A stretch of DNA of 33,849 bases from an uncultured Bacilli bacterium (GTDB lineage Bacteria; Bacillota_I; Bacilli_A; RF39; UBA660): assembly GCA_944363935.1 (NCBI GenBank), contig CALVVT010000020.1, forward strand, positions 1 to 33,849. The letters are read 5' to 3'. Within the stretch, counting starts at the first letter, position 1. The number at the start of each line of letters is the position of its first letter. The position numbers and the translations under genes are program-made. The notes below the pieces were generated by a model. It ran no database searches and was not told the origin of the DNA. It worked only from the letters and a program-made list of their open reading frames with translations. Below are positions 12,017 through 14,520 of the stretch, in pieces.

Positions 12017-12481
12017 CTAATTACCTACAAAATCATTATATTCTTGTTTATTCGCATAAGAGCTAAAAAGACGGCCACTTTTAAAATTAATACTAGGATA
12101 TTTATTTTTTAAATCATTTTCTGCATAACTTATACCACTACCACCAGAAGTTCCAAAAGGAATTACAGTTTTGCCATTAAAATCATAACTTTCTAAAAAA
12201 GTATTAATTATATTAGGGGCGATTCCCCACCAAATAGGAAAGCCTAAATAAATATTTTGATAAGCTTCTAAATTAACTTTATTTATAATAACAGGTCTAA
12301 TACTTGGATTATTTTTTTCCACAGTACTTCTACTATTACTATCATTCCAATTTAAATCTGCAGCTGTATAAGGTTCTTCTGGAATTATTTCAAATAAATC
12401 TCCATTACAAACTTCAGCTAAATTTTCAGCCACCTTTTTAGTTGTACCAGTAGCAGAAAAATAAACAACTAAATTTTTCAT
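12017..12481 (-). CDS. Flavodoxin family protein
   Basis: A 154-residue FMN-binding protein. The phosphate-binding loop is FSATGTTKKVAE at residues 8-19, and FPIWWGIAPN near residue 81 and GTSGGSG near residue 110 are the other two FMN-contact loops. It fits the flavodoxin_4 subgroup seen beside oxidoreductases rather than classical electron-transfer flavodoxins. ATG 12481 has GAAAGGATG upstream. It is a single-gene unit driven by a MerR-type promoter that matches the AdhR operator of B. subtilis, so induction by aldehydes or other electrophiles is likely. Its regulator is not in this window. Confidence 0.88.
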   Translation of the reverse strand: MKNLVVYFSATGTTKKVAENLAEVCNGDLFEIIPEEPYTAADLNWNDSNSRSTVEKNNPSIRPVIINKVNLEAYQNIYLGFPIWWGIAPNIINTFLESYDFNGKTVIPFGTSGGSGISYAENDLKNKYPSINFKSGRLFSSYANKQEYNDFVGN

Positions 12482-12502
12482 AACATCATCCTTTCTTATT
12501 TA

Positions 12503-12533
12503 ATTTTAACACTTAAAGTTTACTTTAAGTCAA
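12503..12533 (-). promoter_or_regulatory. MerR/AdhR-type promoter and operator of the flavodoxin gene
   Basis: On the minus strand TTGACT (12533-12528) and TAAAAT (12508-12503) are separated by 19 bp, the stretched spacer of MerR-regulated promoters. Filling the spacer is a perfect 8-bp inverted repeat ACTTAAAG-TAAA-CTTTAAGT (12511-12530). It contains CTTAAAG-N4-CTTTAAG, the operator described for the MerR-family regulator AdhR. Confidence 0.85.
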
Positions 12534-12551: not shown

Positions 12552-13385
12552 TTATACTTCTATTACTTTTCCTTTTAAATTACAAATGTAAGCTTTAGGT
12601 AATAATTTTTTTATTTCTTTTAACATCTTCTTATCTTGTTCATAACTTTTACCTACTAATACTCCTTCAATAAAACAAGAAGGAATTCCAAATAAAACAG
12701 CACTTTCTCTATCAGTAAAAAAAGCGTCTTTATTTTTTCTATCTATAACAAAGTATTCATAATATTTAGGATTAACAAACTCTTTAACATCTTTATCATT
12801 AATCTTATCAGTTAAAATATCGCCTTCTAAAAGTTTCTTTATTTCCTTACTTTGACCATTTATTATAATTCCTATTTGAATATTATTTTGGACCAAACTT
12901 GGCATAAATCTAGCTTCTTTTGTTTGTTCTAAATTCCATTTATGATATTCGTCTTTAAAAGAAATTATATCTAAAATATTAGGCATATCATCGTAACTAA
13001 TAACTGCTATTTCCTGCTTGTTTGGACCGGCAAATTTTATCGTTCCTCCACTATAAAAGTTAATATAATCTTTTAACAAATAATCTTTTTGTAAATTCCA
13101 TACACCTACACAGCAAGGATATTTTGAATTTCTTCCACCAATAAAAAATCCTGCTATTAATCCATTATTTACAATTTCTTTTAAACCTTCTATATTTTTA
13201 TAAGTACCATGTAACAATGTTCCTTTTTTCAAAAAAACATCATCACCAATATTATAATTATGTTTAATATTTTCTATAGTATTTTCTATTTCATAATAAT
13301 TTTCTATCTGTTTAATCATTATTTTTTTTGAAACCTTTTCCTTTAATTCTCTATTAGTAATTTTTATATAATCTTCTTTTATCAT
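12552..13385 (-). CDS. Unknown protein, possibly ADP-ribosyltransferase-like
   Basis: A 277-residue cytoplasmic protein without signal or membrane segments. I do not recognise it with certainty. The segment LLHGTYKNIEGLKEIVNNGL (about residues 57-76) has the shape of the first core motif of ADP-ribosyltransferase-like folds, where HGT contacts NAD and a GL follows after a helix. Near the C-terminus SCFIEGVLVG could place the third conserved residue (Glu) of the H-Y-E triad, and FYSGG in the middle could give the Tyr. This is inference from pattern only. Its start lies 4 bp behind the stop of the cyclophilin-like gene, so the two form one transcription unit. Confidence 0.4.
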   Translation of the reverse strand: MIKEDYIKITNRELKEKVSKKIMIKQIENYYEIENTIENIKHNYNIGDDVFLKKGTLLHGTYKNIEGLKEIVNNGLIAGFFIGGRNSKYPCCVGVWNLQKDYLLKDYINFYSGGTIKFAGPNKQEIAVISYDDMPNILDIISFKDEYHKWNLEQTKEARFMPSLVQNNIQIGIIINGQSKEIKKLLEGDILTDKINDKDVKEFVNPKYYEYFVIDRKNKDAFFTDRESAVLFGIPSCFIEGVLVGKSYEQDKKMLKEIKKLLPKAYICNLKGKVIEV

Positions 13386-13389
13386 AACA

Positions 13390-13884
13390 TCACTGACTAA
13401 TAGAAACTGTAACTTGCTGATTTAAAGCAATATCAGCTAAACCATTAGGATTATCAATCTTACCTATTTTCGTATAACTATAATCGGTTTCAAAACTTTC
13501 ATAAAAAATAACTAAACAATTATTACCATATAACATAATATCTCCGACTTCAACAGTCTCTACTTTTTTGGGATTAATAGGAAAACTGCCATCAAAATAA
13601 TAATATTTTTCATTATCATTCAAATCGTTCATTTCCATTGTTATCGGAAGTTTACTAATAAAATCACGAGTTGTTTCATTATCTTCTAAAGTGGCTGTAT
13701 AATTATTGCCATCAATACTAATATTTATTTTATCGATAAATTCTTCTTCTTTTTCCTTTTTCTTCTCTATTTTATTTTCTTTAGTATCAGTTTCCACACT
13801 TTCACTATCTGTTTGACTTGTTAAAACTAAACAAATAATAAGTATTAAAACTAATGCACCAACAATTATAATCCATTTTTTCAT
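13390..13884 (-). CDS. Membrane-anchored or secreted cyclophilin-like domain protein
   Basis: About 164 residues. A hydrophobic N-terminal segment (residues 3-21) acts as signal or anchor, followed by a Lys/Glu-rich linker to about residue 48. The rest is a cyclophilin-like fold domain: INISIDGNNYTATLEDNET, then a KLPITMEMNDLN segment, KYYYFDGS, VGDIMLYGNNCLVIFYESF and KIGKIDNPNGLA. These domains resemble the DUF4430/cyclophilin_like group and have no proven isomerase activity. The start is uncertain: ATG 13884 has AAAGGTG very close, whereas GTG 13890 sits five bases after AAGGA; the difference is two residues. It is first in a two-gene unit. Confidence 0.78.
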   Translation of the reverse strand: MKKWIIIVGALVLILIICLVLTSQTDSESVETDTKENKIEKKKEKEEEFIDKINISIDGNNYTATLEDNETTRDFISKLPITMEMNDLNDNEKYYYFDGSFPINPKKVETVEVGDIMLYGNNCLVIFYESFETDYSYTKIGKIDNPNGLADIALNQQVTVSISQ

Positions 13885-13960
13885 AAGCACCTTTATCCTT
13901 TCTATTAATATTTTACCAAATTTTTACTAATTTTAAAAGAAATTATCATTTAAAACCTAA

Positions 13961-14166: not shown

Positions 14167-14520
14167 TGGTGGAGCCGAGGAGAATTGAACTCCTGTCCAA
14201 ATATACTTCAAAATAAACGTCTACAAGTTTAGTTAACTATTAAATGTCCTAATAAATAAAGTAGTTAACAACTAATTTATTAGTAAGCCTATAATATTCA
14301 TTACTATTTCTAGGCTAAATAGTAATATAGCCCGTTAAAGTGAGCCCTTATAAATTTCCACGGGCAAGAAATAAATAAGAGCGCTTTGCACATTTCCTAG
14401 GCAAAAGCTAATTGGCCATTATAGCCTTTTTCTTTTCCATTTATTATGATTTTGTACGTAACGTGCACACCCGACTTGCAGTTTAAATCACCATATACCT
14501 GTCGAAACCAAGACGGCCCC
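14167..14520 (-). ncRNA. ssrA: Transfer-messenger RNA (tmRNA)
   Basis: The 5' end GGGGCCG (14520-14514) pairs with CGGCTCC just before the encoded ACCA 3' end (14167), forming the tRNA-like acceptor stem. GTTCAATTC near the 3' end is the T loop. The inner reading frame runs from GGA at 14438 to TAG at 14399-14397 and encodes GKEKGYNGQLAFA, so with the charged alanine the tag is AGKEKGYNGQLAFA. The resume context ATAATAAAT-GGA-AAA parallels the B. subtilis one. Length is 354 nt. It releases stalled ribosomes together with SmpB, whose gene lies just upstream on the same strand. Confidence 0.95.

Follow-up and report, generated by a model that had tools for sequence, protein, structure and literature searches.

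The flavodoxin gene and its neighbours

The window, which is the whole stretch of 33,849 nucleotides that was analysed, comes from an uncultured Bacilli bacterium and has a G+C content of 27%. Its minus strand carries a gene for a flavodoxin of 154 amino acids, and the gene is preceded by a promoter-like arrangement with an internal dyad (Table 1). The protein passes the cut-offs of both Flavodoxin_4 (203.8 bits, cut-off 24) and PRK07116 (NF005501; 215.9 bits, cut-off 198). Downstream, the flavodoxin gene points toward a tRNA-Gln gene on the opposite strand, and it therefore looks monocistronic. Upstream on the same strand, a gene for a 277-residue protein reaches its stop codon 18 bp ahead of the flavodoxin -35 box; no match to this protein was found in Pfam or NCBIfam (E 0.001) or in PADLOC (E 0.01). 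Close to the flavodoxin gene there is also a gene for a Cyclophil_like2 protein; a search of 113 other loci with a flavodoxin found homologues of it in 11, and the two proteins may work together. A tmRNA gene lies further along, and the end of its predicted tag peptide looks unusual.

Table 1. Features of the window and promoter-bearing loci elsewhere in the genome.
Feature	Position	Strand	Content or basis
-35 element TTGACT	12528..12533	-	sequence; same in all four genome promoters
19-bp spacer	12509..12527	-	sequence
20-bp operator dyad ACTTAAAG-TAAA-CTTTAAGT	12511..12530	-	8/8 pairs, 8-4-8 layout
-10 element TAAAAT	12503..12508	-	sequence; 19 bp off the -35 element
Shine-Dalgarno-like AAAGGA	12489..12494	-	sequence
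Flavodoxin gene, 154 aa	12017..12481	-	Flavodoxin_4 (PF12682), E 1.3e-60; NCBIfam PRK07116
277-aa protein gene	12552-13385	-	no profile match
Cyclophil_like2 protein gene	13390-13890	-	PF18050, E 1.2e-32; hydrophobic N-terminal segment
tmRNA gene	14167-14520	-	ARAGORN; tag peptide AHFNGLYYYLA
Site 1	contig C20		the window's flavodoxin
Site 2	contig C40		CMD gene, then membrane-anchored flavodoxin
Site 3	contig C34		larC1, then DUF362, then P-type cation ATPase
Site 4	contig C90		nmlR (118-aa MerR)
nmlR, 118 aa	C90:49246-49599		NmlR/AdhR-like MerR with own-type promoter

A very probable MerR-type promoter ahead of the flavodoxin

Read on the minus strand from 12533 to 12503, the region has the form TTGACT-19-TAAAAT, and its -10 box ends 21 nt ahead of the flavodoxin ATG at 12481. 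A dyad placed between -35 and -10 elements that are 19 bp apart is the geometry of a MerR-type promoter; such promoters have spacers of 19-20 bp according to excerpts of a published account (PMC9909328). The initial annotation had proposed a promoter of this kind, and the geometry, the perfect dyad and the presence of four copies in the genome all bear the proposal out, so the site is very probably genuine. Its picture of a spacer fully occupied by the dyad needs amending, since the dyad takes in 17 of the 19 spacer bases plus the final 3 of the -35 box. The switch type itself is already known; the content of the regulon, above all the larC1-DUF362 pair, is new.

Four promoters and a candidate regulator encoded in trans

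The assembly (G000) comprises 1.27 Mb in 95 contigs, with 94.6% completeness and 3.5% contamination. A search for the full promoter with at most 3 mismatches returned four sites, as against none for a reversed-pattern control; the pattern detects own-type half-sites only, and promoters with other half-sites are missed. Besides the flavodoxin gene of the window, these sites precede three further units (Table 1). On C40, a 108-residue protein of the carboxymuconolactone-decarboxylase family (CMD) is followed, with an overlap of 4 nt, by a gene for a 196-residue protein with a hydrophobic N-terminal segment and a Flavodoxin_4 domain. The first gene on C34 encodes a 266-residue protein that corresponds to the N-terminal half of LarC. 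The word lone, which the initial annotation used for the flavodoxin, fits the transcript that the sequence suggests, yet the gene belongs to a putative regulon of four units.

The fourth site belongs to a candidate regulator. Two MerR_1 proteins were found in the genome, on C90 and C84, and the operator core lies 26 nt ahead of the ATG of the C90 gene, nmlR. The C90 protein combines a MerR helix-turn-helix with a cysteine at position 52, which places it in the NmlR/AdhR clade. Its best NCBIfam match is NmlR (NF041849), at 123.9 bits and thus below the curated cut-off of 175; in the PDB its best match is 3gp4 (E 3.7e-29), which is without the cysteine, and HI_0186 (5e01) is matched at E 6.4e-17. 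Cys52 is present in all 10 NmlR-clade rows of the alignment (9 distinct sequences). In the excerpts consulted of PMC4776306, Cys52 of B. subtilis AdhR is the residue conserved in the NmlR clade, no adhA transcript is made in response to formaldehyde when AdhR carries C52A, and the CMD protein yraC is among the AdhR targets. An AdhR-type regulator acting in trans had been anticipated, together with a genome scan for the same operator and for an AdhR-like MerR protein, whose absence would have spoken against it. The scan yielded the four promoters and the C90 gene, which lies on another contig and bears the same operator ahead of itself. Action in trans is thus well supported; the AdhR-type assignment holds for the clade but does not extend to strict membership of the NmlR family. 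For CTTAAAG-N4-CTTTAAG, given in the initial annotation as the known AdhR operator, the papers searched include none that mentions the CTTAAAG half-site together with AdhR. Upstream of nmlR on C90 (L005 1523-2034), a frame with an aminoacyl-tRNA editing domain (PF04073) overlaps a frame of 79 amino acids; a split gene or a fault in the assembly may lie behind this.

Because the window is so poor in G+C, a chance origin of the palindrome in AT-rich DNA was tested, and this explanation is almost certainly wrong. In its favour, operator cores with 3 mismatches allowed occur 6 times in the window against a shuffle mean of 7.1, which is chance level, and a core with 1 mismatch lies within gyrB (C27). 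The gyrB core does not match the full promoter and is taken as chance. Since loosened cores are at chance level, the exact site, whose core occurs once in the window, and the full promoter alone were used as evidence. The combination of TTGAC, a 19/20-bp spacer, a -10 box and a dyad of 8/8 pairs appeared in none of 120 windows resampled at first order (4.06 Mb in all, searched on both strands); relaxing the dyad gave 2 sites at 7/8 pairs or more and 12 at 6/8 or more. A filter of 6/8 dyad pairs with 4/5 in TTGAC admitted many spurious sites and was hence tightened. For the exact full promoter, the Markov expectation is 6e-6 per 1.27 Mb genome. Together with the genome count against its control and the promoter at the regulator's own gene, these results rule chance out. 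As the sole other MerR_1 protein found in the genome, the C84 protein might work the site in place of the C90 protein. This is very unlikely: it has leucine at the sensor position, for which it was rejected as the regulator, its score against the NmlR model is 24.4 bits, and its contig carries none of the four promoters.

Conservation of the promoter and its genes in the family

The C90 protein is matched in 38 of 193 family genomes (E <= 1e-8). Thirty MerR loci were taken, 10 of the NmlR clade and 20 of other MerR types, with two loci lacking a MerR reading frame left out. A TTGACTT promoter with a 19-bp spacer, 1-4 mismatches away from the own pattern, lies upstream of the gene for each of the eight closest NmlR proteins (51-100% identity, the own protein among them), and its half-sites drift between species (e.g. 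CTTAGAG, CTTAGAC, CTTGGAG). Retention of the nmlR promoter while the half-site drifts is as predicted by co-evolution of an autoregulatory site. For the next two NmlR relatives (47-48%), no site was found within 200 nt, and among the 20 loci of other MerR types such a site is present in some and absent in most.

The own-type promoter, at 2 mismatches or fewer, occurs in 10 of the 193 genomes, own included. Of the 13 non-own loci, 12 have Flavodoxin_4, CMD, DUF362 or merR as their first downstream genes, as identified by reading and in most cases confirmed by BLAST; at the thirteenth (L022) the site points to a different gene, with the MerR gene divergent. One locus (L023) has a gene after the flavodoxin that was named an aldo-keto reductase by reading. 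Four of these loci (L024, L025, L027 and L028), from other genera of the family, belong to a different MerR type, roughly 145 amino acids long and with a stop inside the L027 copy; it has near-identical promoters and heads groups with Flavodoxin_4 or alpha/beta-hydrolase-like genes.

The one congener searched, G067, has a single contig on which nmlR and its site, CMD, larC1, a cupin, two more frames, a flavodoxin and DUF362 all point the same way. Identities are 63% for larC1, 80% for DUF362 and 34% for the flavodoxin, which, judged by its sequence, is not a strict orthologue. As the same gene families are clustered there, the four separate sites of G000 give the impression of a cluster that has been dispersed. 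In G068, G001 and G148, nmlR adjoins CMD and DUF362. An NmlR-clade protein above 90 bits is found in ten genomes, eight of which have DUF362, and seven of those eight show a linkage of DUF362 with nmlR or a site (G000, G067, G054, G068, G001, G148 and G142; the G054 gene is broken). The link in G190 is weak, its site having failed the tightened filter. Among named flavodoxin relatives, 3 of 79 have a site within 300 nt upstream, compared with 10 of 1580 random stretches (one of 80 loci was dropped, its upstream part being too short). Control of Flavodoxin_4 genes by such a promoter is therefore lineage-limited, and conservation of the site ahead of flavodoxins in general was not used as main evidence.

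The LarC1-DUF362 pair

The larC1 product passes the NCBIfam LarC cut-off (178.6 bits, cut-off 90). The gene occurs in 3 of the 193 family genomes and always with DUF362, adjacent in G000 and G111 and in the same cluster in G067. G111 yielded neither a site (in the part of it that was read, L249) nor a C90-like protein (at E 1e-8), a result that argues against strict coupling of larC1-DUF362 with NmlR. DUF362 is present in 125 of the 193 genomes; being far commoner than LarC1, it works in most of them without LarC. Searches of G000 gave no LarA at E 0.01 and only sub-cut-off matches for LarE.

The regulon DUF362 protein is predicted to have the LarA fold. Its AlphaFold model (pLDDT 93.9) was built on an alignment of 37 sequences, these being the usable ones from 39 loci. 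The first 17 Foldseek rows for this model are LarA-family structures (TM-score 0.38-0.49 on the query), as are the first 12 rows from VIA-align (Z 12.9-14.8, with the next row at 4.8); 4nar, which is titled by protein code only, is counted among these entries. His80, His139, Lys149 and His165 are invariant in all 37 sequences, and the 139-149-165 spacings are those of LarA His174-Lys184-His200, with His174 as given in PMC11770544. Sequence comparison shows no more than a faint link: with the LarA-like 9q2u (E 0.22), the invariant lysine is aligned to a lysine. Lar family membership was rejected, as the match to Lar_N (PF09861) is 12.8 bits with a gathering cut-off of 23.3; DUF362 is instead a sister family. 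Excerpts of PMC11770544 place DUF362 and DUF2088 in one Pfam clan (CL0471); this is also the paper found to mention DUF362 along with lactate racemase, LarC or the nickel-pincer cofactor, and in those excerpts DUF362 merely serves as the outgroup.

In the wider class, DUF362 adjoins larC in 4 of 16 larC loci from 15 other genomes (L258, L259, a fragment, L262 and L263, in two families), and all four have larE-like and whole or partial larB-like genes, assigned by motif and reading rather than by profile. No LarA-like motif outside DUF362 was found in nine wider stretches, namely these four and five others. LarA was equally unseen near the lar clusters without DUF362 included there (L272, L273, L275), so a missing LarA alone is no proof that DUF362 replaces it. 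In L268, L269 and L270, from other families of the class, DUF362 lies directly 5' of larC in clusters that also hold a larE-like and a larB-like gene, the latter incomplete in L269.

For DUF362 as a LarA-like enzyme, the case from the modelled fold is good and that from gene neighbourhood suggestive, while cofactor and reaction are putative. It is a bold and rather unlikely proposal that DUF362 includes 2-hydroxyacid (or related) enzymes that depend on the nickel-pincer cofactor and work with LarC in the manner of LarA, the LarC1-DUF362 pair having been brought in this bacterial family, along with flavodoxins, under the control of an electrophile sensor of the NmlR/AdhR type. If true, it would make this a carbonyl- or redox-stress regulon employing a LarA-like enzyme. 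DUF362, a common family of unknown function, is in any case tied here to LarC and the LarA fold.

Proposed mechanism and inducer

The site is best explained, with a probability of roughly 0.85, as the operator-promoter of the trans-encoded NmlR/AdhR-clade MerR protein of C90, an electrophile or oxidant switch acting through Cys52 by which the four units would be co-induced. This reading draws on the promoter geometry, the four copies, the regulator with the same site, the conserved cysteine, the drift of the site with the regulator and the clustering in the congener. The C90 dimer would sit on the 8-4-8 dyad within the 19-bp spacer, and the over-long spacer would hold transcription low. Once an electrophile or oxidant had modified Cys52, at the sensor position, the dimer would, by analogy with the MerR family, distort the DNA and thereby make the promoter usable for RNA polymerase. 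The set made together would comprise the flavodoxin, CMD with the membrane-anchored flavodoxin, larC1-DUF362 and the regulator itself. The flavodoxin would give electrons for repair or reduction, and the set may have a detoxifying or redox-repair role.

The inducer would be an electrophile or oxidant, with aldehydes a possible case. The initial annotation had named aldehydes and related electrophiles; a gene for an AdhR-like regulator is indeed present, but aldehydes specifically are not borne out, as no alcohol dehydrogenase (adh) gene was found after any of the four own-type sites. With a dehydrogenase missing there, quinone or oxidative stress is nearly as likely as aldehydes. A variant within the best explanation accordingly keeps the same regulator and operator, takes a quinone, disulfide or oxidative/nitrosative stress as the natural signal and sees the regulon as a redox-repair set of flavodoxins and CMD. 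The recurrence of flavodoxin and CMD genes under the promoter in relatives fits this variant, whereas the Cys52 sensor and the CMD target are common to the carbonyl-responsive AdhR regulon of B. subtilis in the excerpts of PMC4776306, and the aldo-keto reductase at L023 hints at carbonyls. On balance its chances fall a little short of even.

Starting from one operator, a small regulon can be read from its four copies, the matching sensor gene and the congener cluster. The NmlR/AdhR type is extended to a family of small AT-rich genomes in which the usual dehydrogenase is not under the operator, and a Flavodoxin_4 protein gains a testable context.

Comparison with known systems

The closest parallel is the AdhR (YraB) regulon of B. 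subtilis, which, as described in excerpts of PMC4776306 and PMC11577753, shares the NmlR-clade MerR protein with Cys52, a CMD target (yraC there) and the electrophile logic. It differs in that here neither adhA nor yraA is under the operator, their place being taken by two flavodoxins, larC1 and DUF362, and in that the targets lie on separate contigs with the regulator in trans. The NmlR regulons of Haemophilus, Neisseria and Streptococcus are alike in regulator clade and in the position of the sensor cysteine (Cys54 in H. influenzae, according to excerpts of PMC4776306), whereas here adhC-estD is not under the sites and the NmlR model reaches 124 of 175 bits. Unlike the lactate racemase (Lar) nickel-pincer system, the present genome has the N-terminal half of LarC only, no LarA at E 0.01 and sub-cut-off LarE matches; what it shares with that system is a larC1 product above the LarC cut-off and a DUF362 protein whose model resembles the LarA fold, within Pfam clan CL0471 (excerpts of PMC11770544).
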